Assembly: GCF_021391495.1 (NCBI RefSeq)
Contig: NZ_CP090063.1
Location: 6,448,001-6,512,000 of the forward strand
Length of the DNA stretch: 64,000 nt
Direction: 5' to 3'
Source: Amycolatopsis acidiphila
GTDB lineage: Bacteria > Actinomycetota > Actinomycetes > Mycobacteriales > Pseudonocardiaceae
The position numbers and the translations under genes are program-made. Below the pieces are notes generated by a model. It saw only the letters and a program-made list of their open reading frames with translations. It did not search any database and was not told the DNA's origin. Within the stretch, counting starts at the first letter, position 1. The number at the start of each line of letters is the position of its first letter. Positions 31,361 to 58,735 of this stretch are shown here, piece by piece.

Positions 31361-32350
31361 TCATCCGCCTCGCGCGCCGGCACGCGCCGGCGAACGGCGA
31401 GATGCCGCGAGGATGACGCCCGCCGCGGCGAGCGTGAAACCCGCTATCGCAAATCCCGACAAAGGCTCGTCCAGCGTGACCGCGGCAATGATCGCGGTCA
31501 CCGAGGGAACGAGGAAGAACATCGTACTGGCTCGTACCACCTCGCCACGACGGATCATCGCGTAAAACAGGGTGAAGGCGATGATGGAGTTCACCAATGC
31601 CAGCCAGCCCACGCTGAACACGAACAATCCGGCTTGGTCGATGTGCACGTCTTCGAAGACGAAGGCGCACGCGGCTGCCAGGCAGGTCGACGCGAGCAGC
31701 TGGACCGCAGCCCCGGTCCTGAGGTCCATTTCCGGGCAGAACTTCTTCTGATAGACAGTGCCACCACTCAGCGCGAGCAGGCCCACCACCGTCACGACGA
31801 CGCCCGCGAAGTAACGCTCGGAAAAGTCGAGTCCCTTCGCCACGGCCAGGACAACCCCGGCGATGCCGAGGAGGAATCCCCACAGCTGCCTCGGGGTCAG
31901 TCGCTCACCGAGGGCAGGCCCGGCGAGCAACGCCGTGAGCAGCGGATTGAGCCCGATCACCAGCGACGAGATGGCGGCGGGCACACCAAGCTTGAAGCCG
32001 CTGTACACAGCGAGAAACTGCAAGCCCTGCACCAGGACCCCGGCAACCGCGATATGCGCGAAGGCCCGTTTGCCCTTAGGCCACGGAGCCTTCGTCAACC
32101 CCACGATGCCGAACATGACGAGTGTCGCCAGACCGAACCGCGCGAGCAGAAGAGTGAACGGCGGCGCGCTCCGGACGCCTAGATCACCGACGACGTATGC
32201 GCTGCTCCACGCCAACACGAATGTGACCGGCACCCCAGCTGTGAGTGCGATCGATCTCAGTCCCGGCCGGCTCGGCGACCTGGAGCGCAACCAGGCCATC
32301 CGCTCGAGAAAGCCCCAGTCCAGAGCCTTCGTGCTGTCACTGTTTCTCAT
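31361..32350 (-). CDS. EamA/DMT-superfamily transporter (cluster exporter candidate)
   Basis: A 329-residue permease with about ten membrane helices arranged as two EamA repeats (first from about residue 38, VTFVLAWSSAYVVGDLGVRSAPP; second from about 185). DMT proteins export amino acids and small metabolites. It is the last gene on the strand of the biosynthetic cluster, separated from the glutamate mutase gene by a 206-bp AT-rich gap, so it may have its own promoter. CAGGAG sits before the ATG. Exporting the cluster product or an amino-acid-like intermediate is a reasonable inference, not shown. Confidence 0.82.
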   Translation of the reverse strand: MRNSDSTKALDWGFLERMAWLRSRSPSRPGLRSIALTAGVPVTFVLAWSSAYVVGDLGVRSAPPFTLLLARFGLATLVMFGIVGLTKAPWPKGKRAFAHIAVAGVLVQGLQFLAVYSGFKLGVPAAISSLVIGLNPLLTALLAGPALGERLTPRQLWGFLLGIAGVVLAVAKGLDFSERYFAGVVVTVVGLLALSGGTVYQKKFCPEMDLRTGAAVQLLASTCLAAACAFVFEDVHIDQAGLFVFSVGWLALVNSIIAFTLFYAMIRRGEVVRASTMFFLVPSVTAIIAAVTLDEPLSGFAIAGFTLAAAGVILAASRRSPARAGARGG

Positions 32351-32556
32351 GGTGCTCCTGAAAGTCTCGAGCGCGTAGAGCTTGGCAGGATCATGACCTG
32401 GGAAACCGAGAGCCGACGAGGCGGTCCTGGCCGAATACCTTCATTGTGACGTTCCACAAAGGAAATTTTTCTTATTTTAGGTCGGTAACAGCCGTCTTTC
32501 ATCCGCTATCCCAGTGAGGACATGGCAACCGCCGAGCGTAATAAGAGCCCTGATCC
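32351..32556. promoter_or_regulatory. AT-rich gap between glutamate mutase and EamA genes
   Basis: About 200 bp without a gene. Positions 32455-32490 form an AT-rich island (AAATTTTTCTTATTTTAGG) that is unusual for this genome and is the likeliest place for a promoter serving the EamA gene on the minus strand. No terminator hairpin is evident, so read-through from the cluster operon is also possible. Confidence 0.35.
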
Positions 32557-33843
32557 CTACACACGGTCACCCCGGCTGTTATGACGAATTTCTGACTCAT
32601 AGTCGAACTTACGCTGTACATAAGTCAACTCTTCGAGTAAACGCGCCGCAGAACGCGGACGCGGTTTGACGCGCCATACCGATCCACGGAGAGGCAGTGA
32701 ACCGGTATCCTCCCATCGAAGCCAGCCGTCGCGATCAATCCTGCTCCTGGTAGCGCCGTTGTTGTCAGGGTGCAAACTGAACGGGAGATCGAGCAGGCCT
32801 TTCCCGAAGGCGATCCGCAACGCGATGCCGAGATCGTCATCGAGATCGAGAACAGCTCGTACGATGGCGGCGGCTTCCGCGTAGGTTTGGGAATCACTCT
32901 CGAGTGGGACGCCCGAAGGTGGCAGCACCTCGGCAAATGCGGCAGCCTGCTCCAGGGCCGAGATGTTCTCCTGGACCGAGGGTATTCGCTGCGCCTCCAC
33001 AGTGGTCTTGACGATCAGGCGCTCCGCTCCCGTATACACGGCGAGTGCGACAGCCTGCTCCAAAACCCGGGCTCCACCCGCTGCCGTTCGCGGATAAACG
33101 CCCATATAGGCGTAAATGACAACGTGCCAATCTACTGCGGGTAGAAGCTCACGACACAATCGGCGTAATGCGGCGACCGCCTCACAGTCCTGCTCCAAGT
33201 TGGTCTGCTGAGCGTAACTGAGTGAGATGCTCCGGAGACCGTGCTGGACGAAGAAGAGCCCCTCCAGAATCGCGATCGCGACCAGTTGGCCGGGTGGGCA
33301 GAGCTGTCCGAGCATGCACCCGCCGAACGTCTCCAGATGTGGCTCCATCTGTTGCGACCGGAGCTCCGCCAAGCCGTCGCAACACTTCGCCCAACTCGTT
33401 ATCGACTCGCGCAGCGGCGTCCGGCCATAGGGAAGGCAATAGGACACGGGCCCTCCCTCAGTCGCGCCCAAGGGAATCGCACGCAATACCTCGAAGACCC
33501 CGAGCGGTAGGGCTGTGCCGTGCCGCACCTGGATGGGAAAGTCCTGGTCCGAGACCGAAGCCACCCATCGCGTTACGTCGACCGGATGAGTGACCAGCGG
33601 ATAGCCGTTGAGCGGGATGCCCTCCCGCAAGGCCTGCTCGGCAAGATCGAGGCGGCCGACTCGGGTGTGGGCGTCCAGGGTTATGGTTCCGGCAGTAGTC
33701 GCGTCAGCGTGCCTGGTGGCAAGCAGCCCGGCGCGCATCGCGGCAGGTTCGGCGAAGCCCATCCGGGGCTGGACGACCAGGTTGCCACGGTTCGCCTGCC
33801 GCCGTACGTACCGGCCGAAATCAGACTGGTCCGTGGTCATCAT
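32557..33843 (-). CDS. Glutamate mutase epsilon (large) subunit
   Basis: A 428-residue catalytic subunit of AdoCbl-dependent glutamate mutase (methylaspartate mutase), which turns L-glutamate into (2S,3S)-3-methylaspartate. Recognisable family blocks are the N-terminal NRGNLVVQPRMGF, RVGRLDLAEQALREGIPLNGYPLVTH, FPIQVRHGTALP, GATEGGPVSYCLPYGR, the substrate barrel segment QMEPHLETFGGCMLGQLCPP, then LSYAQQTNLEQDCEA. It is shorter than the clostridial enzyme (about 480), missing part of the C-terminus. It starts on the ATGATGA that ends the sigma-subunit gene. In vicenistatin-type pathways such pairs (VinH/VinI) supply 3-methylaspartate; the same role is inferred here. Confidence 0.88.
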   Translation of the reverse strand: MMTTDQSDFGRYVRRQANRGNLVVQPRMGFAEPAAMRAGLLATRHADATTAGTITLDAHTRVGRLDLAEQALREGIPLNGYPLVTHPVDVTRWVASVSDQDFPIQVRHGTALPLGVFEVLRAIPLGATEGGPVSYCLPYGRTPLRESITSWAKCCDGLAELRSQQMEPHLETFGGCMLGQLCPPGQLVAIAILEGLFFVQHGLRSISLSYAQQTNLEQDCEAVAALRRLCRELLPAVDWHVVIYAYMGVYPRTAAGGARVLEQAVALAVYTGAERLIVKTTVEAQRIPSVQENISALEQAAAFAEVLPPSGVPLESDSQTYAEAAAIVRAVLDLDDDLGIALRIAFGKGLLDLPFSLHPDNNGATRSRIDRDGWLRWEDTGSLPLRGSVWRVKPRPRSAARLLEELTYVQRKFDYESEIRHNSRGDRV

Positions 33844-34304
33844 GGCCGTGCGCAGGGCACTGTGGTCGACGTGCGGGACATCCGGCCGGCTACCTCCTCG
33901 GCCATCCCCGCCAACAGTTCACGAAACACGGCCAAAGAGCGTTCGTCGTCCGCGAAGATCTCGTCGAAGCCCGCCGCCAGGAGCCGCACCGATCGTCCTT
34001 CCGCACCGGCCTGGTTCACACTGAGCTTTCCCCCAGCCACCACCCGCATCGGCTCATGCCGGGCATGTCGCCGCAGTCGTCCGATGAGGTTCAGGCAGTC
34101 CTGGTAGCCGTGACCGTTCACGCTGCTGATGACCACCAGCACGGGGCGATGCAGGCAACACTGCGACACCAGGAGATCCTCCGGTACGCACGGCCCCAGA
34201 TTGACGACGTGGAACCCGTACTCCTCAATCAGCAGTTGCAGGAACACGAGATTCCATGTGTGTGCATCCGAAGGGGTGGAGCTCACGATCACCACACCCG
34301 GCAT
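33840..34304 (-). CDS. Glutamate mutase sigma (B12-binding) subunit
   Basis: A 154-residue cobalamin-binding Rossmann domain. The lower-ligand His lies in SDAHTWN (about residues 12-18); the classical D-x-H-x-x-G ends in Asn here instead of Gly. VVNLGPCVPEDLLV, ISSVNGHGYQDC and VVAGGKLS follow, matching the sigma subunit of glutamate mutase. The Asn variant is, as far as I recall, common in actinomycete biosynthetic homologues, so the protein is probably functional. ATG 34304 is chosen because a longer frame would overlap the decarboxylase gene by 68 bp. It is coupled by overlap to the epsilon subunit gene. Confidence 0.85.
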   Translation of the reverse strand: MPGVVIVSSTPSDAHTWNLVFLQLLIEEYGFHVVNLGPCVPEDLLVSQCCLHRPVLVVISSVNGHGYQDCLNLIGRLRRHARHEPMRVVAGGKLSVNQAGAEGRSVRLLAAGFDEIFADDERSLAVFRELLAGMAEEVAGRMSRTSTTVPCARP

Positions 34305-34311
34305 CTCCCTG

Positions 34312-35553
34312 TCACCCCTTTCCGATGGCGTTCTCGTAGACACGACGGTGTTCGAGTCGTGACACGGATACGACGGCACCGTCTCGTACGACGACTTCGG
34401 CCGGCGCGGGGCGGCTCAGAAACGCCAGCAGGCTCGCAGTCGGCCCGTAGGCACCAGCGTTCGGTATGGCGATGACGTCGCCGACCGACAGGTCCGGCAC
34501 CTCCGCGCCTCTCGCCAAGATGTCACCCGGAGTGCATAGCGGACCTGCCAGACTGACCCTCTGCACTACCCGGTCCGCTTCAACGGCGACCTCGGCCGGC
34601 AGTAGCCTGCCGACCCCGGACAGCCCACCGAAAGTGTTGACCCCGCCGTCGAGCAGTACGAAACGACGCCCCCTGCTGGTCTTGACGCTTCGCACGCCGA
34701 GCAAGAGCGTTCCGCACTCGCCCACCAGATAGCGGCCCGACTCCACCGCAATCCGGACGCCGCCCGACCGCCATCGCGGAAGATGCCTGTCCAAAGTGTC
34801 TTCCAGTGCGGCGCGCAACCCCGGATACCGATGACGTGTACCGGCCCGCCCGTAGGGGCAGGCGAACCCACCGCCGATGTCGACCATGCGCACTGGCCGG
34901 CCTAGCTCCTTTTCGAGCCTGGCCGCCGCCGCGACGGCGTGGTCGAACTCGGCGACCAGGGCTTCCTCGCTCTCGGCGTTGCTCTGGGAAAAGAAGTGGA
35001 ACCCGACGACATTGGTTCCGGGAACCCCCTCCAGCGTGGGTACGGCGCCCCGGAAACTCTCACTGTCCATCCCGAACTGGCTGGGCCTGCCTGTCATTCG
35101 GGCGCCCGAGACCCCGGGAACCACCGGCTCATTGATCCGCACCAGGCAGTCCGCGACGACTCCTGCCTCCCGCGCCGACGATCCGATGCACCTCAGGTCG
35201 GTGACCGACTCCGCGGAGAAGAGCCTGACCCCGGAACTCAACGCGAAGCGCAGTTCGTCCTCGGTCTTCGCGGGACCCGTGTAGAGAACGTCTGCCGGGT
35301 CGTGGCCGCCTTGCGACGAGGCGGCGAGCTCACCGGCCGAACTGACCTCGGCTCGGCATCTACGCTCACCCTCGACGAGGGAGCGGATGAGTTCCGGGTG
35401 CGGATTCGCCTTCACCGCATAAAAAGCTTCGACTCCGCTCGGGAGACTCTCGAACAGGTCCTCTCGCGCCGCGAGGACCTTGTCCAGGTCGTAGACATAC
35501 AGGGGTGTCCGATACCGCCTGACCAACTCGCTGCGCTGGGTGGCCGTCGTCAT
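34312..35553 (-). CDS. PLP-dependent decarboxylase, LysA/ornithine-decarboxylase fold (VinO/BtrK-like)
   Basis: A 413-residue fold-III (alanine-racemase-like) decarboxylase. The PLP Lys48 is in FYAVKANPHP, the glycine-rich phosphate loop is DIGGGFACPYG (about 217-227), VESGR is near 261, and the active-site Cys is in GPLCTPGDIL (about 340-349), followed by NAGAYGP. In butirosin (BtrK) and vicenistatin (VinO) synthesis, relatives decarboxylate an amino acid while it is attached to a carrier protein. The carrier, ligases and glutamate mutase around it suggest that it decarboxylates 3-methylaspartyl-carrier protein to 3-aminoisobutyryl-carrier protein. ATGA overlap with the preceding ligase gene. 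Confidence 0.86.
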   Translation of the reverse strand: MTTATQRSELVRRYRTPLYVYDLDKVLAAREDLFESLPSGVEAFYAVKANPHPELIRSLVEGERRCRAEVSSAGELAASSQGGHDPADVLYTGPAKTEDELRFALSSGVRLFSAESVTDLRCIGSSAREAGVVADCLVRINEPVVPGVSGARMTGRPSQFGMDSESFRGAVPTLEGVPGTNVVGFHFFSQSNAESEEALVAEFDHAVAAAARLEKELGRPVRMVDIGGGFACPYGRAGTRHRYPGLRAALEDTLDRHLPRWRSGGVRIAVESGRYLVGECGTLLLGVRSVKTSRGRRFVLLDGGVNTFGGLSGVGRLLPAEVAVEADRVVQRVSLAGPLCTPGDILARGAEVPDLSVGDVIAIPNAGAYGPTASLLAFLSRPAPAEVVVRDGAVVSVSRLEHRRVYENAIGKG

Positions 35554-37076
35554 CCGTTGCTCCGCTTCAACAGCATTGCCATTTCGTCGCGGGCATGCTT
35601 CCCGTTCGGGGTACGGGGAAGCTCGTCCACCACATGGCAGCTGGCCGGCACCTTCGCTGGTTCGAGACGATCCGCCAGCTCCTTGAGTACTCGGCTCGCA
35701 GAAAGCGCTGTCTCCGCGAAAATCGCCAGGTCGTGGTGTTCAGCCGGAGGCACGACCGCCGCCGCCTCGACGCCTGCGACGTCCATCGCCGCCTGCTCGA
35801 TCTCGGTAGTGCTCATGCGGACGCCCTTGCGCTTGAAGACCTCGTCGCGCCGCCCTTCGAAGTACAGGTAGCCGTCCTCGTCGAGAGAGCCGTAGTCACC
35901 GGTGTGCAACTGGACTCGTCCAGTCCTGCCGTCTCGGCGAAACACTGTTCGGGTGGCTTCCGGGTTGCGCCAGTAACCGGCCATCACATGTGGTCCGGAC
36001 ACGACGATTTCGCCAACCCTTCCGGCCGGGAGCGGATTGCCGGCGGCGTCGCTGATCCACACCTCGGTGCCCGGGAGGGCGCGGCCGACCGAACCGAGGC
36101 GCTCGTTGTGTTCGTCCGGCGGCATGACGGTGATCCTCTTCGCCTCCGTCTGACCGTATTGCCGAACCACTCGCGCTCCGCGAAACCGCTCGGACAACTC
36201 CTGGATCATCGCCGGCGAGAGCGCGGCCCCCGTGTTGCTGAACATTCGGATTCGGGGAAGTCGTCCGGCCTCGCGTTTCGCGAGACGAAGAATCATGGCT
36301 GCGAAGGACGGCACGATCGGCACCACGGTGGTACCGGTTTCGCTCATCCGGCTGAGCAGAGTGAGGTCGGTCCCGCCACCGGCGAGCACGATCTCGCACC
36401 GGGCACAGCACGTCATGATCAGTTTGTACAACCCGTAGTCCCAGGAAAGCGGGAACCTGCAGAAGACGACATCCGCAGACCGATAGCCCAGCACCGAAGT
36501 CAGTGCGCAACAGCTGAAAACGATCTGCCGGTGCGGACAGACTACCGCTTTGGGGGTCCCGGTGCTGCCCGACGTATAAATGAGTACCGCCGGATCCGAC
36601 GGGCAGTTCTCGTACTGCTCGACCTCCGGATCGGACGAGCAGAGGTCTTCGACTTCTGCCCATACATGGTCGACCTCGTGCACCAGCACCGAAGCGATCG
36701 ACCGCAGTATCGAGGCCCACGGTACAGCGGTGATCACGATGGCCGGCTCGGCGTCGGCGACGATCATGCGAAGCTGAAAGGCCTTGGTCATCGGATCGAG
36801 CGGAACGAGCACGGCGCCGGCGCGCGACACGCCGAAGACCATGGCCGCGAACTCGCGGCAGGCAGGTAGCTGGATGAGCACGCGATCGCCAGGTCGTAGG
36901 CCTTGACGTCGTAACCAGGCTGCAAAAGCCACGCTATGTCTTGCCAGTTGCCGATAACTCCAACGGCCTGCCGAATCTCGCACCGCCGGCGATTCGGGCG
37001 CATCCTTCACCGCACCGTCCAACATGTGGTGCACGAGAGCACCCGTGGGTGAGTCCTGCCGCGCGGTGTGCATCAT
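35550..37076 (-). CDS. AMP-forming ligase, beta-amino-acid (VinN-like) type
   Basis: A 508-residue stand-alone adenylation enzyme of the ANL superfamily. The P-loop-like IYTSGSTGTPKAV is at 166-178, the segment FPLSWDYGLYK at 208-218, SNTGAAL at 280-286, YGQTEAKRI at 307-315, then HTGDYG and the catalytic C-terminal Lys in RTPNGKHARDEM. The [FW]DYGLYK and QTEAKR wording is that of ligases I associate with beta-amino-acid loading (VinN type). In those, an Asp in the first block binds the amino group and an Arg in the second binds the side carboxylate; here they would be Asp213 and Arg314. Inferred job: load 3-methylaspartate onto the free carrier protein. It overlaps both neighbouring genes. 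Confidence 0.8.
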   Translation of the reverse strand: MMHTARQDSPTGALVHHMLDGAVKDAPESPAVRDSAGRWSYRQLARHSVAFAAWLRRQGLRPGDRVLIQLPACREFAAMVFGVSRAGAVLVPLDPMTKAFQLRMIVADAEPAIVITAVPWASILRSIASVLVHEVDHVWAEVEDLCSSDPEVEQYENCPSDPAVLIYTSGSTGTPKAVVCPHRQIVFSCCALTSVLGYRSADVVFCRFPLSWDYGLYKLIMTCCARCEIVLAGGGTDLTLLSRMSETGTTVVPIVPSFAAMILRLAKREAGRLPRIRMFSNTGAALSPAMIQELSERFRGARVVRQYGQTEAKRITVMPPDEHNERLGSVGRALPGTEVWISDAAGNPLPAGRVGEIVVSGPHVMAGYWRNPEATRTVFRRDGRTGRVQLHTGDYGSLDEDGYLYFEGRRDEVFKRKGVRMSTTEIEQAAMDVAGVEAAAVVPPAEHHDLAIFAETALSASRVLKELADRLEPAKVPASCHVVDELPRTPNGKHARDEMAMLLKRSNG

Positions 37077-38644
37077 TCCCGACCCCCCGGGGAACTCGAA
37101 ACCTCACGCCGGGAACCCGGATTGATTTTGGCCAGCAACGAACGACGATCGACCTTGCCGCTCGCGCTGAGCGGAAATTCCCGGAAGACGGTCACCGAGG
37201 AGGGCGCCATGTACTCCGGCAGGCGCTCGCGCAGCCTGCTGGTCAGCGCCACCGCGTCGAGGTCCCGCCCGGTACACGCCGCCACGACCTCGTCGTTGCC
37301 GGCAATGGAAACCACGAAGGCAACGGCATCCACCACACCGGCCTCGGACCGCAGTACCGACTCCACGTCCCCCAGTTCGACCCGGTAGCCGCGTATCTTC
37401 ACCTGCTGGTCGGTCCGTCCCAAGTGCACAAGCCCGACGTCCGACAGGCGCACCCGGTCCCCGGTGCGGTACCACAGCCGATCGGACGGCTGAATCGGCT
37501 CCGAAACAACCCGCGGGGTTCCGCCCTCCCATTCGACGAAACGCCCGGCATTGTCGGCCGGGTCGAGGTAACCGGGAAAGCGCTGAACCCCCCGGACGCA
37601 CAACTCGCCCTCCGTGTCCGGGAAACCTTGCTCGTTGAGCACCAGCCGCTCCAGGCCCGGATACAACTGACCGATCGGCAGGACCTCGCCGCCGGATCGC
37701 CCTTCCCGCAACGAGTGCGGGGACACCCGGTATTGGCTGCAGCTCAACGTCAGCTCGGTCGGTCCGTAGAGATTCTCGATGACGCTCGCCGGCGCGGCGG
37801 CCTGCCACGCACGCGCATGAGCCACCGTCAGTGGTTCGCCACAGAACAAGCTCCAGCGCAGCGCCGGCATCGAACTCGCGGACAGGGCGCGTAACCGCAT
37901 CGCGAAGGACACCACCGACGGCACGGAGAACCAGTGTGTGAGCCCACGCGCGGCCACGAACCGCGCAGGAGCCAGCAGCTCCGCTCGGCTGGGCACGACG
38001 AGCGTCGCGCCCGCCCCCCAGGTCGCGAACAGGTCGAAGACCGACAGGTCGAAGGTGAGATCGAAGGTCTGCGACACCCGATCGCCCGGCATCAGGCCAT
38101 AACGGTCTATGACGTAGGTGAGGAAGGCGGCGAGGTTCTGGTGGCGAATCGGCACTCCTTTCGGCCTGCCGGTCGACCCCGAGGTGAACAGGATGTAGCA
38201 GAGCCGATCCGGCTCGGACGAGCGCGCTCGTGGTCGCACCTGGCCGCGCAAGGAGTTGGGCGACGCCGGCAACGTAAGTGCTCTCGCAGACAGCTTCCGG
38301 ACCGAGCAGTCCTCCTGGGCCAGGACGAAGTCCAGGCCGGCAGCGCCGGCGATCGCCGCGTTCCGCTCTTCTGGGAACCCGGGGTTCAGCGGTACCACGG
38401 CCGCCCCCAGCGAGGCGATCGCGAGGTACCCGGTGTACGCCAGCACCGATCGGCCGGCGAGCAGACCGATCCTCCGCGGCACAGCGCCGTTGTTGGCCTC
38501 CACGACGCGATCCGCCAACCGCTCGGCCCGAATGCGCAGCTGCTCATAGGTCAATACCTCGCCGGCCACTTCCAGAGCGGGTTCGGAGGCATACGCCCGC
38601 GCTGAGGTGGAAAACCACTCGTGCATCGTCGAACCGGTACCCAT
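37073..38644 (-). CDS. Stand-alone NRPS-type amino-acid adenylation enzyme (VinM-like)
   Basis: A 523-residue adenylation enzyme with the full NRPS core set: A3 LFTSGSTGRPKGV, A4 FDLSVFDLF, A5 NLYGPTELT, A7 YRTGD, A8 GRTDQQVKIRGYRVELGD, and A10 SASGKVDR. The A4 Asp expected to hold an alpha-amino group is present, unlike in the neighbouring ligase, so it should activate a proteinogenic-type alpha-amino acid. In vicenistatin synthesis VinM adds alanine to the amine of the carrier-bound beta-amino acid as a protecting group; a similar role is inferred. No condensation domain exists in the cluster. ATG 38644 follows GGGGGAACGTG and overlaps the upstream stop by one base. Confidence 0.82.
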   Translation of the reverse strand: MGTGSTMHEWFSTSARAYASEPALEVAGEVLTYEQLRIRAERLADRVVEANNGAVPRRIGLLAGRSVLAYTGYLAIASLGAAVVPLNPGFPEERNAAIAGAAGLDFVLAQEDCSVRKLSARALTLPASPNSLRGQVRPRARSSEPDRLCYILFTSGSTGRPKGVPIRHQNLAAFLTYVIDRYGLMPGDRVSQTFDLTFDLSVFDLFATWGAGATLVVPSRAELLAPARFVAARGLTHWFSVPSVVSFAMRLRALSASSMPALRWSLFCGEPLTVAHARAWQAAAPASVIENLYGPTELTLSCSQYRVSPHSLREGRSGGEVLPIGQLYPGLERLVLNEQGFPDTEGELCVRGVQRFPGYLDPADNAGRFVEWEGGTPRVVSEPIQPSDRLWYRTGDRVRLSDVGLVHLGRTDQQVKIRGYRVELGDVESVLRSEAGVVDAVAFVVSIAGNDEVVAACTGRDLDAVALTSRLRERLPEYMAPSSVTVFREFPLSASGKVDRRSLLAKINPGSRREVSSSPGGRE

Positions 38645-39549
38645 CACGTTCCCCCAGGATCGGGCGCGGCGAGGATGCGTCCGAGAGCCTGCTCCAGGAG
38701 ACCTGGGCGAGGACGCCCGCGCCGGGCACTTTCGGTTGTCGTCCGGACGGCTCTCGGGAGGGCGCCCCACGCGCCGGCCGCTTCCGACGCGCCGTTCCCC
38801 GACATCGCCAGTCGATACCGTTGGTGGCGGCTCGCCGACCAGAGGTCCGGTGCCTGCCGCACCAGTAGACCGGGGTCGGTGCAGAACCGCCGGGACAGCA
38901 CATCCAGGACAGTCGCAGGCTCCCGGCTCCACTCGGGATCGTCATTGCTCGTCGCCGGGACGGGCCCGGCCCGCTCGAGCCACCTGTAATGGGTGTGATC
39001 GGGCATGGTCGTCGCGTTACCCAAGGCGTGCCGCTCCCGGTGCAGCTGTTCGGTCGTCGGCCTCGTCAATGGGCTGATGGAAGCACGAAAGGCATCGTCT
39101 GTGAGCCAGCCGTCGTGGGGCGACTGTTCACCCCGCGCCGTCATCGCCGCGAAGTGGTCTGACACGTGCCAGTGCCCGCGCTCGTGCCGGTGCACCAGGA
39201 ACCAGTGTGGCGCCTCGTCCCTGCCGGAGGAGGGCGACCACGGTAGGTGCCAGGTGTTACCGACAACGAGGACCCGGCCACGGCACTCGAGCTCCGCGTC
39301 GATGCCGGCCCGGGCGTTGTGCCAGTCCCTCGCGCCGCGATACGCCAGCACCGAGCCATCGCGACACGTATCGATTCGGTTGTAGTGGGAGAAGATCAGG
39401 ACGTCCGACTTGGGGTCGGCCCCCACCCACAAGTGCACCGCGGACGCTAGTCGGCCGGCGACGTCCGGGTCCTCCACCTCGAGGTACGCGACCAGGTTGG
39501 CGGAATAGCAGGTCAGCAGATCGGTGCTGGTGAAGCCGGGTGCGTTCAC
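38644..39549 (-). CDS. BtrH-like acyltransferase/cysteine-peptidase-fold protein
   Basis: A 301-residue protein whose first 140 residues have the layout of the butirosin BtrH N-terminal (papain-like) domain. Cys14 is in LLTCYSANLVAYL, there is a strand VLVVGNTWHLPW, His115 is in APHWFLV, and Asp131 is in HVSDHFAA, forming a Cys-His-Asp triad candidate. BtrH moves an acyl chain from a carrier protein to an amine of the antibiotic core. The rest is unrecognised. Spacing of the triad matches the second BtrH-like protein of the cluster (Cys13, His112, Asp127). The GTG at 39549 overlaps the preceding stop (GTGA); the long upstream frame is rejected because it lies within the neighbouring gene. Confidence 0.68.
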   Translation of the reverse strand: MNAPGFTSTDLLTCYSANLVAYLEVEDPDVAGRLASAVHLWVGADPKSDVLIFSHYNRIDTCRDGSVLAYRGARDWHNARAGIDAELECRGRVLVVGNTWHLPWSPSSGRDEAPHWFLVHRHERGHWHVSDHFAAMTARGEQSPHDGWLTDDAFRASISPLTRPTTEQLHRERHALGNATTMPDHTHYRWLERAGPVPATSNDDPEWSREPATVLDVLSRRFCTDPGLLVRQAPDLWSASRHQRYRLAMSGNGASEAAGAWGALPRAVRTTTESARRGRPRPGLLEQALGRILAAPDPGGT

Positions 39550-40628
39550 GATTCGAGTTCTTTCAACAGGGCGGGAAGATGGTCCGCCACCACATCGAGC
39601 ATGAGCTCCGTCGCGCCGCCGCCGATGCCGAACACGGCGGCCTCTGCCCGCATCTGTTGCACACCTCCGGACCGGAAACCATCGGCACCGTGGAACTGCG
39701 AGCACGCTGTCATCACCTGGTCGACCGTCGCGGCTGACGCCGCCTTGAGGAGGGCTCCCGCGACGGCGTCATGCTCAACCGCGATGCGCTCCCGCAACCG
39801 TTCCCAGAGCGCGTTCAGCCCGTGCAACTGCACGAGACATCCGGCAAGCCGCTGGCGAACCGCCGGATTCCGCGAGAGTGGAAGATCGTCGACCTGCCGG
39901 TCGTCGAGTCGCCGCACCGTCCGGGAGATGACCGTGTGACACAGGTGGATCGCCCAGGTAGCGGAGGCCAGCCGCTCGACCGTGATGTGTCGGGAGAACA
40001 TGGCAAGACCGCGGCCGAAGCCCCCGAGGACCCATTCGGGTGCGATTTCGACTCCGTCGAAGGTCAGGTGCCCGAGGCCTGCACCTTCGAACAGTGTCGT
40101 GTCCACCGGGCTGACCGAAACGCCGGCGGCGGCCAGGGGTACGAGAAACCAGGTGAAGTTCGTGAAGTGCCGCCCAGGTCGATGTTTGGCCAGTACGAGT
40201 GCGTGGCGGGCGAAGAGCGCGGATGTCACCCAGCGCTTACGACCGCGGAGCACCAGTTTTTCCGTCCCCTCGAGTGCGACGGCGCTTTTCGCACCCACGA
40301 GATCCGATCCGGCTGTTTCATCGGTGGCCGCCACGGCCACAACTTCTTCACCAGCGAGACAAGCGTCCAGCACCTCTCTCGCGCACGGCGTGACGGCCGA
40401 TTCGGCCAAGAGCGGAAGCGCCGTGGCAAGCTGAACAGAGAGGGCGAGGACGGGCCCCAGCCGGCCGTCCTGGCAGGCTCGCCCGATCAGACGTCTCAGT
40501 ACGAGTGGGTCCAGATTGCCTCGGGGCGTCTCGCCATAAAGCTGACGGACCGCACCGGAGCTACTCAGCTCGGCCATCGTCCTGTCCATGTCCGGTGGGA
40601 GCCGGTCTCGCACGAACGAATCAGACAA
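39546..40628 (-). CDS. Acyl-CoA-dehydrogenase-like flavoprotein 1
   Basis: A 360-residue ACAD-fold protein: AVAATDETAGSDL near residue 98 (the flavin-contact 'TE..aGSD' block), KRWVTSA near 131, the middle beta-domain, VERLASATWAIHL (217-229), and the C-terminal helix with FHGADGF. The usual catalytic Glu in the C-terminal YEGT motif is replaced (GIGGGATEL). Glu218 sits where isovaleryl-CoA dehydrogenase keeps its base, so alpha,beta-desaturation is still possible. The start is TTG 40628, six bases after a GGAGG site; an upstream frame would overlap the previous gene by 65 bp. Probably acts on a carrier-bound acyl group. Confidence 0.78.
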   Translation of the reverse strand: MSDSFVRDRLPPDMDRTMAELSSSGAVRQLYGETPRGNLDPLVLRRLIGRACQDGRLGPVLALSVQLATALPLLAESAVTPCAREVLDACLAGEEVVAVAATDETAGSDLVGAKSAVALEGTEKLVLRGRKRWVTSALFARHALVLAKHRPGRHFTNFTWFLVPLAAAGVSVSPVDTTLFEGAGLGHLTFDGVEIAPEWVLGGFGRGLAMFSRHITVERLASATWAIHLCHTVISRTVRRLDDRQVDDLPLSRNPAVRQRLAGCLVQLHGLNALWERLRERIAVEHDAVAGALLKAASAATVDQVMTACSQFHGADGFRSGGVQQMRAEAAVFGIGGGATELMLDVVADHLPALLKELES

Positions 40629-41805
40629 AACCCACCTCCGGATCGAGCAAGGCGAGTCTCCCGTCGGCGAGGTGCAGCCGGTCATTGCTGAAGTTGAGCG
40701 CCGCCGAGCGGAGGTCGCGCAGTGAGCGCTCGAGGCCGGTGGGCGAGTCCTTCAGGTATCCGTGCTTCAACCCCACGACGTCGATCAGGTCTTCGATCAC
40801 CCGGTAGCACTCCTCGGAAGCGGTGATCTTGAGTGAGTTGATCAACAGTTGGTACCGCGGACGCGAAAGGTCAGCGCCACCGTCCATTGCCCCCGAGACC
40901 GCTGCCGCCGTGTGGCGGGTCAGCGCATGGACGGTCTCCAGTCGCTGCCGCGCCCGTGACAATCTCGCCAGGAGCAGCTCCGATTCGAGGTTGAGTCGTC
41001 CACGCTCGGCAGGGGCGCGCAGCAAGCTGACGACTCGCGACATCGCCCCAGCCGCGGCACCCAACCAGGCGGCCGCCCAGCCCAGGTGTGCCAAGGGCGC
41101 GAAGCAGGTGACCGCGATCCTCCTGAACCCACCGTGTGCGCCGATGACCTGGCCGGCCGGGATGCGACCGGTCAACTGGAGCGCGACACTGTGGCTCGCG
41201 CGCATGCCGAGCGGGTTCCAGGCACCCGAAACCACAATGTCCAGTTGATCGCGATGGGCATAGACGAGCGAGACTTCGTGCTCGGACTGCGCCCGCGGAC
41301 TCCGCACGCTCACCAGGAAACCGTCAGCGTGCGCGCCGCCTGTCACGATGGGTGCGAAGCGATCGAGAACCACGCTGTCGCCGTCATCGCCCAACTGTGA
41401 CTCGGCGCTCAGCAGATGGCCGCCCTTGCCCGCTTCGGTAGTCACCGAAGCCAGGTACAACCCCTCGTCACCCAGCTGCGCCAGGAGATCGTCGCCGAAG
41501 GGCTGGGCGGCATGAGCGACGATGGCCGCGACCTGCTGACTGTGCATGGCAAAGATCATCGCCACGGAGAGGTCGACGCGGCCCAGCGCGACCGTCACCT
41601 CCAGCATGTCGTCCAGCGTTCCGCCAAGGCCACCGTGGTGCCTGGGCGCGAGCAGTCCGAGTAGTCCCTGCCTGCGAAGCTCCGTGAGCGCCGCCGTGGG
41701 GAACTCAGCTGCCGCGTCCATCTCCGCGGCGTGCTTCTGAACCACCTCGCAGACGTTGCCCACGCGGTCGTTCAAGCCGACTGCGGCAGGTGATGACACG
41801 ATCAC
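40621..41805 (-). CDS. Acyl-CoA-dehydrogenase-like flavoprotein 2
   Basis: A 394-residue ACAD-fold protein: helical N-terminal domain (GLLGLLAPRHHGGLGGTLDDML near 48), LASVTTEAGKGG near 118 in place of the usual flavin-contact block, and NPLGMRASHSVALQL near 197. The C-terminal helices carry an LRSAALNFSNDRL segment where a dehydrogenase would have its YEGT. Neither the usual Glu nor the isovaleryl-type Glu is visible. It may be a hydroxylase/oxidase-type flavoprotein or the non-catalytic half of a mixed tetramer with flavoprotein 1, whose gene overlaps it by 8 bp. GTG start overlapping the carrier-protein stop. Confidence 0.76.
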   Translation of the reverse strand: MIVSSPAAVGLNDRVGNVCEVVQKHAAEMDAAAEFPTAALTELRRQGLLGLLAPRHHGGLGGTLDDMLEVTVALGRVDLSVAMIFAMHSQQVAAIVAHAAQPFGDDLLAQLGDEGLYLASVTTEAGKGGHLLSAESQLGDDGDSVVLDRFAPIVTGGAHADGFLVSVRSPRAQSEHEVSLVYAHRDQLDIVVSGAWNPLGMRASHSVALQLTGRIPAGQVIGAHGGFRRIAVTCFAPLAHLGWAAAWLGAAAGAMSRVVSLLRAPAERGRLNLESELLLARLSRARQRLETVHALTRHTAAAVSGAMDGGADLSRPRYQLLINSLKITASEECYRVIEDLIDVVGLKHGYLKDSPTGLERSLRDLRSAALNFSNDRLHLADGRLALLDPEVGFV

Positions 41806-42062
41806 GTCCTGCCTGCCGCGGTAGATCCGTCACCGATGGCGGCAGACGTGGCCCGCCAAAGGCGGCCGGCGGTACTGAAGGTCTCCTCGGTCAGTACGTC
41901 TTCCGGCAACCGAATCGAGAAGGTGTCCTCCAGCGCGAACAGCAGCTCGATCGATTGCATCGAATCGAGCCCCAGTTCTCGAAGCGGGGCCTCCGCGGTC
42001 ATCTCCTGCTCTCCCAGGAGCGGCAGGAAACGACGTAAAACGTCGACGAAGACGGCATCCAT
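41802..42062 (-). CDS. Free-standing acyl carrier protein
   Basis: An 86-residue carrier protein with the four-helix layout and the phosphopantetheine attachment Ser34 in LGLDSMQSIEL. AGAGGAAGAGGG precedes the ATG at 42062; the longer frame would overlap the upstream gene. It is the likely platform on which the cluster ligases, the decarboxylase and the flavoproteins act, in the same way as VinL or BtrI. No phosphopantetheinyl transferase is in the window, so activation must come from elsewhere in the genome. The 3' end overlaps flavoprotein 2 (GTGA). Confidence 0.88.
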   Translation of the reverse strand: MDAVFVDVLRRFLPLLGEQEMTAEAPLRELGLDSMQSIELLFALEDTFSIRLPEDVLTEETFSTAGRLWRATSAAIGDGSTAAGRT

Positions 42063-42076
42063 CCCTCTTCCTCTCG

Positions 42077-43189
42077 TCACACGGCCTGCCGGCGCGCGTC
42101 CCGCACCAGCTCGCACAGATCATCGACACGAACAAGCTTCTCGGGCAGCAGGCTTCCTGGCGGGAACTCGACGGCGAACACACGCTCCAACCGTTCGACG
42201 ATTTCGATCATGCGCAGGGAGCTGAAGGCTGGGAGATTCGTCAGTTCACCCTGTTCCACGAGCTGTTCCGGGAGACCCAGGACCGTCGCGACGGTTGCCC
42301 GGACGCCCGCGTGAACGTCCGTGCCGTCGCTCACGGGCGACTCGGGCACGAAGACGCTGCCGTCCTCACCCAGCAGATTCCCCACTGCGGTGAACAACCC
42401 AGGCGGCTCCGGCCTGCCCTGGGCCACTCGCCGATACGCCAAGTACACCCTCGCGACCATTTTGCTCCATTCCTGGAGGTGCGTCCGCACCGCCGGAGAG
42501 ACGTCTCCGCGAAATTCGCAGCGATAGCGGGTATGCAGGCGGCGAGATCGGTGCAGCAACCAGATCTCAAGGCTGAACCGATCTAAGGCCGTTTCCCGGT
42601 CCGGGTGCTCGGCATACGTCGACAAATACGAGCGCAGACTCTGCCGCGACATCTCGAACGACAACGGCGGCGGCGCCGGCAACGGTCGCGGTTCGAACCA
42701 GATCGCACTCAGATCGGGCAGCGTCCGGATCAGATCGACCACGGCGGATCGATCACGTTTGAACCGACACGGCTCAGCGGGTCCCCATATCGTTTCGTTT
42801 CGATAGCCATCGATGATCCAGACGCCGTCACCAGCCGGTTCCAGCAGGAAGCTGTGCTCGACGTGCTTCTGCCGGTAATAGGGCAACCACGGCAGGTACG
42901 CCGCGTCGGTGATCAGGTAAACGGGGACGTCGGAACCGAGGGCTTCGTGAGCGGACGCCGTATCGACGCGCTGAATCGAGGCGAGACCAAGCCTTTCGTC
43001 CGCCGCTTCCAGCTGCTGGCCCAGAGAAGGTTCGACAGTGGGCAACGAGTTCTGCCGTGAGCGCGGGTTGAAATGTAATTCCGCACCGAGCCGGTAAGGC
43101 GTGGCAGCGCCATGATAGTGACTCGCCAGGACCGCGAGATTGATCTGAAGACAATCGAAGAGCCCGGCATCGACCGACGATACGTCCAT
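42077..43189 (-). CDS. BtrH-like acyltransferase domain fused to a carrier-protein domain
   Basis: A 370-residue fusion and the first gene of the operon. Residues 1-135 resemble the BtrH N-terminal domain: Cys13 in LFDCLQINLAVL, YLITDAAYLPWLPYY near 91, His112 in EHSFLLEP, and Asp127 in WIIDGY. A helical middle part follows. Residues about 290-370 form a carrier domain with the attachment Ser324 in AFSSLRMIEIVERLERVF (the usual D-S-L is S-S-L). An acyltransferase holding its own carrier suggests that the acyl group is passed to this domain before or during transfer to the final acceptor. ATG start with AAGGAG four bases upstream. I know of no described protein with this exact pairing. Confidence 0.7.
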   Translation of the reverse strand: MDVSSVDAGLFDCLQINLAVLASHYHGAATPYRLGAELHFNPRSRQNSLPTVEPSLGQQLEAADERLGLASIQRVDTASAHEALGSDVPVYLITDAAYLPWLPYYRQKHVEHSFLLEPAGDGVWIIDGYRNETIWGPAEPCRFKRDRSAVVDLIRTLPDLSAIWFEPRPLPAPPPLSFEMSRQSLRSYLSTYAEHPDRETALDRFSLEIWLLHRSRRLHTRYRCEFRGDVSPAVRTHLQEWSKMVARVYLAYRRVAQGRPEPPGLFTAVGNLLGEDGSVFVPESPVSDGTDVHAGVRATVATVLGLPEQLVEQGELTNLPAFSSLRMIEIVERLERVFAVEFPPGSLLPEKLVRVDDLCELVRDARRQAV

Positions 43190-43421
43190 TTAGCTCCTTC
43201 CGGTCCGCCGGATGGATTCTTTGGAGATGTCAGGCAACCCCAGTGCTTCGTGGCACAGGTTGCACGAGCCCCGGCGGCTCAGCCAGGAGGCGCACTCAAC
43301 CTTTTTGACAGGTGAGGCGGCCAAATTACGCCATTCGAGTGAACCTCCAGCACGAACGCATCTGCGGGGGCGCGCTTCGCCACTTAGAGGCGCAAGCAGG
43401 TTCATCGAGGAGGGGGCTCTC
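43190..43421. promoter_or_regulatory. Divergent promoter region of the biosynthetic operon and DyP gene
   Basis: A 232-bp spacer between the operon's first gene (minus) and the peroxidase gene (plus). A TTGACA box lies at 43305-43310 on the plus strand, with AT-rich sequence (AAATTA) shortly downstream. GAGGAGGGGG precedes the peroxidase ATG. It is the only long spacer upstream of the ten-gene operon, so the operon promoter should lie here. No regulator gene belongs obviously to the cluster. Confidence 0.4.
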
Positions 43422-44816
43422 ATGGCCGTTGACCTGTCCACCCCGCTGTCGTGGCGGGCCGCCACCGGCGACGCCGCCACGATGCTGGACGAGTTGCAGC
43501 CGAACATCGTGAAGGCACACGTGCGCGATCACCTGTCCGTGTTGTTCCTGGGCTTCGGCGACGCAGCCGAGGCGAAGGCGTTCCTCAAGGCGCTCGCCGG
43601 GCTGATGAAGTCGGCGAAGACCCACCTCCAAGAGATCGAGGCGTTCAAGGCGAGCACCGGTGGCGGGACGACGTACGTGGGCCTGGGGCTGACCGCGACG
43701 GGGTACGGGAAGCTGGGGATCGCTGCCACGCCTGGGGATCCGTCCTTCCAGGGCGGTGCGAAGAAGGCCGCCGAGAACCTGGTCGACCCGCCGGTCAGCG
43801 GCTGGGAGCCGCCGTACCAGGAGCCGATCGACGCGGTGGTGCTGATCGGCGACGCGAACGCGGCCGCCACGCGGGCGAAGCGGGCCGAGGTGCTGGCGCT
43901 ACTGCCGCGGTCGGTGACCGTGCTGGGCGAGGAGACCGGGCGCGGGCTCGCGAACGAGAACGGCGACGGCATCGAGCATTTCGGATACGTCGACGGGCGC
44001 AGTCAGCCGCTTTTCCTCACCGAGGACGTGGAAACCGAGCGGGACACCACCGACGGAATCAATGAATGGGATCCCTCGACACCGCTGGCGCAGATCCTGG
44101 TCCCCGATTCCGCGGCGCCGGACCCGAACGTGCACTTCGGCAGCTACTTCGTTTTCCGGAAACTGGAACAGAATGTGCAGCTGTTCAAGCAGGCGGAACA
44201 GGATCTGGCCGAAGAACTGACGCTGAAGGGCGAGGACGCGGAACGCGCGGGCGCGATGCTCGTCGGCCGTTTCGAGGACGGTACCCCGCTCGTCGTGCAG
44301 AGCGCGGCCGGTTCGCATCATCCGGTGGAGAACGATTTCAGCTACGACAGCGACAAGCTCGGGCAGAAATGCCCCTTCCAGGCACACATCCGCAAGACGA
44401 ACCCGCGGGGCTCGGGCGGCGCCGAACCCCCGGAACGCGAGCGGCTGCACCTGATGGCCCGGCGGGGCCAGACCTACGGCCGGCGGCTGGACGATCCCAG
44501 CGCCGACCTGCCGCCGGTGGTCCGCCCGACGAAGGACGTCGGACTGCTGTTCATGGCCTTCAACAGCGACCTGGCCAACCAGTTCGAGTTCACCCAGCGT
44601 CTGTGGGCGAACAACCCCGGCTTCCCCGTCACCCCGGACGGTTCGCGGCCCGGGCTCGACCCTGTCATCGGACAGGGCCAGCGGCCCGGCTCGAACTATT
44701 CGCGGGACTGGGGCCGGAACGGAGCGCAGCCGGTCGACGCGATCCCGCAGGCGGTCACGCTCAAGGGCGGCGAATACTTCTTCATGCCGTCGCTTGCCTT
44801 CCTGCGGAGTTTGTGA
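43422..44816 (+). CDS. DyP-type heme peroxidase
   Basis: A 464-residue dye-decolorizing peroxidase. The distal-site motif GxxDG is FGYVDGRSQP (GYVDG at 188-192), with its catalytic Asp191. The conserved CPFQAHIRKTNPRG (about residues 312-325) precedes the heme-contact arginine region, and FMAFNSDLANQFEF lies near 380. Length and lack of a Tat signal fit the longer C/D-type DyPs of actinomycetes, some of which oxidise lignin models. ATG 43422 is set by GAGGAGGGGG; the frame upstream is non-coding. It diverges from the biosynthetic operon; a role in it is possible but unproven. A terminator follows. Confidence 0.88.
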   Translation: MAVDLSTPLSWRAATGDAATMLDELQPNIVKAHVRDHLSVLFLGFGDAAEAKAFLKALAGLMKSAKTHLQEIEAFKASTGGGTTYVGLGLTATGYGKLGIAATPGDPSFQGGAKKAAENLVDPPVSGWEPPYQEPIDAVVLIGDANAAATRAKRAEVLALLPRSVTVLGEETGRGLANENGDGIEHFGYVDGRSQPLFLTEDVETERDTTDGINEWDPSTPLAQILVPDSAAPDPNVHFGSYFVFRKLEQNVQLFKQAEQDLAEELTLKGEDAERAGAMLVGRFEDGTPLVVQSAAGSHHPVENDFSYDSDKLGQKCPFQAHIRKTNPRGSGGAEPPERERLHLMARRGQTYGRRLDDPSADLPPVVRPTKDVGLLFMAFNSDLANQFEFTQRLWANNPGFPVTPDGSRPGLDPVIGQGQRPGSNYSRDWGRNGAQPVDAIPQAVTLKGGEYFFMPSLAFLRSL

Positions 44817-58624: not shown

Positions 58625-58735
58625 CACGCAACGGGCGCCGAAGCTCTGGCTGCCGATCCGCGAGGACCGGTCACAGTGGCGGGACCGCCCCGGATTCGCA
58701 CCGGGTTCCACGACGACCGTCCCCGGCATCATCGC
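58625..58735 (-). ncRNA. Cobalamin riboswitch
   Basis: Read on the minus strand, the leader of the chelatase gene contains the AdoCbl-riboswitch core. GGAACCCGGTGCGAATCC begins at about 58709, then CGGTCCCGCCACTGTGA ends at 58671 (the invariant CCCGCxACTGT), and the GGCAGCCAGAGC segment around 58645-58656 is the 3' conserved box. The aptamer ends some 70 nt before the ATG; the intervening RNA includes the ribosome site GAGGAG. UUCGGC in the aptamer's 3' part could pair with GCCGAG overlapping that site, which would be a translational switch. High cobalamin should lower expression of chelatase, cobO, cobB and cobC. Confidence 0.88.

Follow-up and report, generated by a model that had tools for sequence, protein, structure and literature searches.

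The DNA analysed here is a stretch of 64,000 nucleotides from Amycolatopsis acidiphila (hereafter, the window), which belongs to a contig of 8.18 Mb and contains an intact block of ten genes followed by a gene for an EamA-family exporter, all on the minus strand (Table 1). The ten-gene block runs from position 43189 to 32557, and the exporter, set off by a gap of 206 bases, extends to 31361; neighbouring frames within the block overlap by 1-4 bases or stand 7-14 bases apart, and the pair of flavoprotein genes overlaps by 65 bases. This layout is the one described in the original prediction, which was made from the sequence before the present analysis, and its family assignments (MutE and B12-binding mutase subunits, a decarboxylase dependent on pyridoxal phosphate (PLP), two AMP ligases, a free carrier, two acyl-CoA-dehydrogenase-like proteins and EamA) hold in Pfam. 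The second of the two carrier domains that it listed is the C-terminus of the protein encoded at the upstream end of the block.

Table 1. Genes of the cluster, in order of transcription. Support includes the predicted local distance difference test (pLDDT) of AlphaFold2 models.
Feature	Coordinates	Strand	Support
BtrH/CcbD/CtaG-fold protein, probable cysteine acyltransferase (residues ~1-285), with C-terminal acyl carrier domain (~286-370) (BtrH-carrier protein)	42077..43189	-	Pfam PP-binding; fold match; pLDDT 90.4
Free-standing acyl carrier protein, VinL-like, GLDSM motif	41802..42062	-	Pfam PP-binding, E 2.5e-10
ACAD1, acyl-CoA-dehydrogenase-fold flavoprotein of the alanosine AlnG family, probable N-hydroxylase of a carrier-bound beta-amine	40621..41805	-	Pfam; identity to alanosine-type loci
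ACAD2, prolyl-carrier-protein-dehydrogenase-like flavoprotein, conserved Glu237	39546..40685	-	NCBIfam RedW-type, E 4.9e-22
Second BtrH/AziU3/CcbD-fold protein (BtrH2), GTG start	38644..39549	-	Fold matches; pLDDT 90.7
VinM-like aminoacyl ligase, adenylation code DLFFLCLLS-K	37073..38644	-	AA-adenyl-dom, E 2.4e-95
VinN-like ligase for the 3-methylaspartate beta-carboxyl	35550..37076	-	PDB 3wvn, 548 bits; pocket residues; tree clade
VinO/BtrK-like PLP decarboxylase, probably acting on a carrier-bound acid	34312..35553	-	PDB BtrK 2j66 and 7ru7, 174-175 bits
Glutamate mutase small B12-binding subunit	33840..34304	-	Pfam B12-binding; methylaspartate mutase S below cut-off
Glutamate (methylaspartate) mutase E subunit	32557..33843	-	Pfam MutE, E 5.1e-79
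EamA-family exporter, likely product exporter	31361..32350	-	Pfam EamA, E 1.5e-28

Two known enzyme sets are apparently grafted together in this cluster, in which a vicenistatin-type loader is joined to a widespread and apparently uncharacterised cassette family. A single-protein scan of named genomes gave no match, but a search with a 13-protein ACAD1 alignment found 148 relatives; the best 80 of these were kept and, together with three from class-wide sampling (ACAD1 in 4 of 394 genomes at E<=1e-60, including the window's own), provided 83 loci. ACAD1, ACAD2 and the BtrH-carrier protein were all matched at 62 of the 83, and the idea of an isolated, unique orphan was dropped in favour of one of many cassettes. 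The genes for both glutamate mutase subunits, GlmE and GlmS, stand beside the cassette in five of the 83 loci: those of Streptomyces sp. DSM 15324, Amycolatopsis bartoniae, S. boluensis, S. himastatinicus and Streptomyces sp. ISL-11. The loosest of these cases is S. boluensis, in which the 11.5-kb stretch begins within the carrier gene, cut there by the end of the contig, two other genes lie between VinM and the mutase, and no VinN or VinO was seen. The loci of DSM 15324, S. himastatinicus and ISL-11 share the order BtrH-carrier, carrier, ACAD1, ACAD2, BtrH2, VinM, VinN, VinO, GlmS and GlmE, and upstream are a separate carrier, a KSIII-like protein, dTDP-sugar genes, glycosyltransferases and frames of a type I polyketide synthase (PKS) (names by inspection). 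Thus, the original description of the chemistry as cut loose from any PKS applies to the window and A. bartoniae, but not to these three Streptomyces loci, which adjoin modular PKS and sugar genes; beside the window copy there is neither a PKS nor a non-ribosomal peptide synthetase. As to the earlier claim that no cluster with this gene set has been described, searches of an openly licensed subset of the literature showed none.

The settings of the cassette were tallied in 89 loci (after removal of six duplicates and three short loci, and with two loci lacking ACAD1), each assigned to a type by marker genes in a fixed order of precedence. TrpB2-like and/or ProA-like genes mark 32 loci (two without ACAD1 and two more without ACAD2), aminomutase-like genes 17, type II PKS or VinK genes seven, glutamate mutase five and inositol phosphate synthase four; seven SbnA/SbnB loci have ACAD1 without the rest of the cassette, and 17 fall under others. 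In 19 of 87 loci no ACAD2 was detected alongside ACAD1; two of these 19 are short contigs. The TrpB2/ProA type, the largest setting, often includes a short-chain dehydrogenase/reductase, a thioesterase and a second carrier. Twelve loci combine the cassette, without detected VinN or VinO, with a lysine-2,3-aminomutase-like radical enzyme and a carbamoyltransferase-like gene (by inspection), and may draw on a different beta-amino acid source. In the four loci with myo-inositol-phosphate synthase the cassette is also accompanied by a sugar-aminotransferase-like gene, which suggests an acylated aminocyclitol as a candidate product. A glutamate mutase away from the cassette was present in four of the seven cassette genomes searched.

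In A. bartoniae, the same 11 genes are found in the same order and orientation between gltD and the gene for a Dyp-type peroxidase, with protein identities of 52-73% (73% for the syntenic exporter); the flanking gltD, Dyp, DeoR and CobQ products are 82-91% identical to those of the window. Because this arrangement recurs at the same site in a second genome of the genus, it is unlikely to have arisen by chance. ACAD1 was matched at E<=1e-60 in two of 19 genomes of the genus group, namely the window strain and A. bartoniae, and named Amycolatopsis species outside this group have cassettes without mutase (three loci). The Dyp gene was matched (E<=1e-100) in 10 of the 17 genomes lacking ACAD1, in one case on another contig and in another only partially and some 17 kb away; in the remaining eight it lies within 3 kb of gltD (gaps of 0.2-3 kb), as against about 12.1 kb in the two genomes with the cluster. 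Since gltD and Dyp lie close together in these eight cluster-less genomes, the cluster looks inserted, as judged from this comparison. The G+C content is 62-68% across positions 32001-44000 and 67-75% elsewhere in the window (2-kb blocks). The flanks consist of gltB and gltD on one side; on the other come genes for the Dyp-type peroxidase and a DeoR-type regulator and then those for cobalamin synthesis (named by inspection). Location at an apparent insertion point implies that adjacency to glutamate synthase need not mean anything, and a functional link to the neighbouring gltBD and cobalamin genes was dropped because the flanks lie within 3 kb of each other without the cluster in eight of 17 genomes. 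A cobalamin riboswitch (Rfam RF00174, 33 bits) lies at 58643-58708, among the cobalamin genes to the right of the cluster and outside it.

The mutase pair, the VinN-, VinO- and VinM-like enzymes and the free carrier constitute a predicted vicenistatin-type route to carrier-bound 3-aminoisobutyrate. Both mutase subunits are clear in Pfam and fall below the NCBIfam equivalog cut-offs (E subunit, 152 bits against 390 for TIGR01503). The VinN-like ligase matches PDB 3wvn, which we take to be VinN, best and over its full length; the pocket residues D230, K330 and R331 are retained and S299 is replaced by Thr in all 14 proteins compared (the window's and 13 relatives), with numbering carried over through a 16-residue construct offset. 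D230 is described as serving the alpha-amino group, and S299 and R331 the alpha-carboxyl group (PMC7756342, in part). A 39-row tree of VinN proteins places the window protein in a single clade (support 100/100) with those of four mutase loci and one Lentzea locus, whereas the identity to the window protein in other cassette loci is 38-44%, with two weak extra matches at 27 and 30%. The nearest solved structure to the decarboxylase is BtrK. The adenylation code of the VinM-like ligase, with positions set through a PheA alignment, is common to the window and four of the five other mutase loci. The earlier proposal of vicenistatin-type loading onto a carrier is supported by the VinN residues, the mutase and the BtrK-like decarboxylase. 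As described in part of PMC11284099, VinN puts 3-methylaspartate on the carrier VinL, where VinO decarboxylates it, and VinM, which activates Ala, Ser or Gly, adds Ala. The vicenistatin starter pathway (VinH/I, VinN, VinL, VinO and VinM) therefore has counterparts in the window for the mutase pair, the VinN-, VinO- and VinM-like enzymes and the free carrier; in contrast, VinK and a PKS were not seen in the window, which adds two flavoproteins and two BtrH-fold proteins. Filing as a macrolactam cluster was dropped because neither the VinK dipeptidyl transferase nor a PKS with a loading carrier was seen in the window.

Related loaders occur in other contexts. The Lentzea aerocolonigenes locus has the mutase-clade VinN, and a search of its genome found no glutamate mutase; its ligase may therefore use aspartate or an outside supply. 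A Labedaea locus combines VinN- and VinO-like genes and a mutase pair with a PKS-like frame of 2,862 aa, in which there are two acyltransferase (AT)-like stretches; its VinN, VinO and GlmE are 56, 55 and 60% identical to the window proteins, VinM was not detected within 20 kb, and the locus is probably a macrolactam-type cluster. At three loci in genomes of the same family, glutamate mutase pairs stand beside an aminoacyl-tRNA-synthetase-like protein (by inspection), one of them with a MetRS-like protein as well.

The two BtrH-like proteins of the original prediction are supported by fold and by a catalytic triad, but the relationship is remote. Pfam BtrH_N matches one window protein below its cut-off (E 0.093; 13.4 bits against 29.7) and leaves the other unmatched; among family members, 7 of 14 match at E<=0.1 and 7 of 11 at E<=1. 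A sequence-only search for solved relatives gave matches at chance level or to the carrier domain, a weak match to BlaR1 and AziU3 at E 0.11-0.13, and a fold search was therefore needed. The AlphaFold2 models of both proteins match CcbD, CtaG and AziU3, with 9-16% identity in the alignments; one of the window copies differs in bearing a carrier domain of its own. In the BtrH-carrier protein, Cys13 is conserved in 56 of 57 rows (one gap), and His112, Asp127 and the carrier Ser324 in 57 of 57 (nine of 65 loci with shorter matches left out); in BtrH2, Cys14, His115 and Asp131 are each conserved in 42 of 42 (two loci with short matches left out). The reference triad of CtaG, C11/H128/D144, was read from variant names in PDB titles. 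By fold and triad, the BtrH-carrier protein is a probable cysteine acyltransferase and BtrH2 a putative one.

For the flavoproteins, which the original prediction took to modify the acyl group, the correction is that ACAD1 belongs with the AlnG family, which points to N-oxygenation. AlnG has been proposed to hydroxylate the nitrogen of a carrier-bound amine (PMC7347517, PMC11705231; both in part). A gene of S. hirsutus is 89% identical to AlnG, and 14 related alanosine-type clusters are reported in Streptomyces and Saccharothrix (PMC7347517, in part). The window ACAD1 reaches seven SbnA/SbnB loci, one of them in S. hirsutus, whose genome has a single ACAD1 match at E<=1e-20, and another in Saccharothrix; identity to their ACAD1 proteins is 60-63%, the link to AlnG running through S. 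hirsutus. These loci contain diaminopropionate genes, an adenylation protein, a carrier and the flavoprotein, with nitrate/nitrite-reductase-like genes in the S. hirsutus locus (by inspection), and look like L-alanosine clusters. Six further loci have a ligase-ACAD1 pair without a detected SbnA. The L-alanosine clusters (AlnG/AlaD) thus share with the window a flavoprotein proposed to act on a carrier-bound beta-amine, but their diaminopropionate genes and nitrate/nitrite reductases have no counterpart beside the window copy, for which the substrate should be 3-aminoisobutyrate (PMC7347517, PMC11705231; both in part). Flavin reductase genes occur in 45 of the 83 loci (in 28, on the same strand and within 1.5 kb of a core gene), counted with no random-region baseline, and in 14 of the 19 loci with ACAD1 but without ACAD2, 11 of the 14 being an SsuE-like protein 2.7-8.0 kb off. 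Their frequency in both sets would favour a flavin-dependent oxygenase, and, because ACAD1 groups with the alanosine AlnG homologues, N-oxygenation is favoured over simple desaturation as its putative reaction. ACAD2 scores 78 bits against the RedW-type family, far under the cut-off of 650, and its Glu237 is conserved in 65 of 65 proteins (one locus with a short match left out); by family and by this residue, it would fit an N-acyl-beta-aminoacyl-carrier desaturase.

We put at about even the chance that the operon stands alone and that its vicenistatin-type loader supplies a general cassette that oxidises and transfers carrier-bound beta-amino acids. In this scheme, GlmS/GlmE would convert L-glutamate to 3-methylaspartate, the VinN-like ligase would load its beta-carboxyl group onto the free carrier, and the VinO-like enzyme would decarboxylate it to 3-aminoisobutyryl-carrier. 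ACAD1, as an AlnG-type reduced-flavin monooxygenase, would then hydroxylate the beta-nitrogen; the VinM-like ligase would add a small amino acid to this nitrogen or its oxygen; and ACAD2, through its conserved Glu, would take the alpha proton for desaturation or ring closure at the N-O group. The two cysteine transferases would shuttle the acyl group between the two carriers, free and fused, and either water or a small amine, and the EamA protein would export the product. Each reaction in this strain, the order of steps after decarboxylation and the product are proposed from observed gene identities, synteny, conserved residues and family and fold placement. A small C4 amino acid or dipeptide, N-oxygenated or N-heterocyclic, is the most likely product, with N-hydroxy, N-N, aziridine and enamide forms as candidates.

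Several points weigh against this scheme. The activity of AlnG is itself described only as hypothesised or putative (PMC11705231, PMC7347517; both in part), and the whole ACAD1 family stands or falls with it, since the window ACAD1 is about equally near to the alanosine proteins (60-63%) and to those of other cassette types (~51-73%); as the former are no closer, functions could also differ across cassette types. Three flavin reductase queries gave no match in the window, nor was a flavin reductase matched in the examined stretches of four of the five other mutase loci. In addition, should VinM act first and form an amide, as it does in vicenistatin synthesis, the beta-nitrogen would lend itself poorly to N-hydroxylation; an acceptor gene is not evident, and ACAD2 also resembles plain desaturases.

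In an unlikely but substantial alternative, modelled on the bolagladins, the two flavoproteins would simply desaturate the alpha,beta bond, and the cassette would yield an enamide unit, alpha-methyl dehydro-beta-alanine. In bolagladin synthesis, BolO (VinN-like), the carrier BolC and BolN (BtrK-like) are proposed to supply dehydro-beta-alanine, with the acyl-CoA-dehydrogenase-like BolQ as the desaturase; deletion of bolN abolished bolagladin and deletion of bolQ gave a dihydro product (PMC7756342, in part). A VinN-type ligase, a carrier and a PLP decarboxylase are common to the window and the bolagladin and AFC-BC11 pathways, the former of which also has the acyl-CoA-dehydrogenase-like protein; however, those pathways start from aspartate and carry a fatty acyl group, as opposed to methylaspartate and an aminoacyl group, and the available parts of their descriptions name no BtrH-like or AlnG-type protein (PMC7756342, PMC12186527). 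The resemblance of ACAD2 to prolyl-carrier dehydrogenases, with its invariant Glu237, and the overlapping ACAD1 and ACAD2 frames, which make a heteromer possible, are in keeping with desaturation. It is disfavoured by the grouping of ACAD1 with AlnG, by the loci in which ACAD1 lacks a detected ACAD2 partner and by the absence from ACAD1 of the dehydrogenase base positions (by inspection). It is considerably more doubtful that, in the manner of vicenistatin synthesis, the operon supplies a starter unit to a PKS encoded at another site of the genome. Although the three mutase-bearing Streptomyces relatives adjoin type I PKS and sugar genes, a VinK-like query gave just two matches in the window genome, at 33% to part of a 1,897-aa frame and at 32% to a 371-aa frame, each more than 130 kb off, the best genome match to the Streptomyces KSIII-like protein is 30%, and the operon closes with an exporter. 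Hydrazine synthetases couple an N-hydroxy amine with an activated amino acid, and with ACAD1 placed in the AlnG family this precedent raises the prospect that the N-hydroxyl serves N-N bond formation, in which a VinM-activated amino acid esterified to the N-OH would rearrange to a hydrazino acid that is later oxidised; none of the eleven gene products is a cupin, a MetRS-type or a nitrite-forming protein (Pfam and inspection), and we regard this as the most improbable course.

The cassette also bears on azicemicin, whose cluster reportedly (2009) combines a type II PKS with a decarboxylase, an additional carrier and a pair of adenylyltransferases, one of them specific for aspartate, from which the aziridine derives. 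Seven loci in Kibdelosporangium, Labedaea, Actinosynnema and Streptomyces are candidates for this type: they contain VinN, VinO, VinM, the carrier, both flavoproteins and both BtrH-like proteins together with a VinK-like AT (six) and/or a type II ketosynthase (KS) (four within 10 kb). In K. persicum and Actinosynnema sp. ALI-1.44, a KS and a chain length factor in the next 20 kb are 81-84% identical to those of the Labedaea candidate, and in Streptomyces sp. YIM 98790 only the VinK-like AT was seen. By gene content, the loci with a type II PKS would fit the azicemicin cluster; the window differs by lacking the type II PKS and VinK and by adding the mutase. An aziridine-containing type II polyketide is known from Kibdelosporangium (PMC4384478, in part), and an aziridinyl starter is listed in PMC4383371 (in part). 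Aziridine formation via N-O chemistry is a live, unproven idea, and we think it rather improbable, if worth stating, that the whole family makes carrier-bound aziridines or similar strained N-heterocycles by N-O activation. ACAD1 would hydroxylate the beta-nitrogen, the VinM-like ligase would esterify the N-OH with an amino acid as leaving group, the Glu of ACAD2 would take the alpha proton and close the nitrogen onto the alpha carbon, and the cysteine transferases would hand over the ring; with glutamate mutase as its supply, the window would give a free 2-methylaziridine-2-carboxyl amino acid or dipeptide.

One conserved flavoprotein thus ties together three subjects that have been studied apart: alanosine N-hydroxylation, the loaders of macrolactam beta-amino acids and the apparently unsolved aziridine chemistry of azicemicin. 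Of the mutase-bearing versions seen here, those of the window and A. bartoniae are the smallest and have no adjacent PKS or sugar genes, and the ten proteins of this small version could suffice to rebuild the shared chemistry, as read by intact-protein mass spectrometry. If N-oxygenation is true, many apparently uncharacterised actinomycete cassettes would gain a predicted reaction. The combination, which is apparently unstudied, is open to experiment and may help to show how unusual nitrogen groups are made in bacteria.

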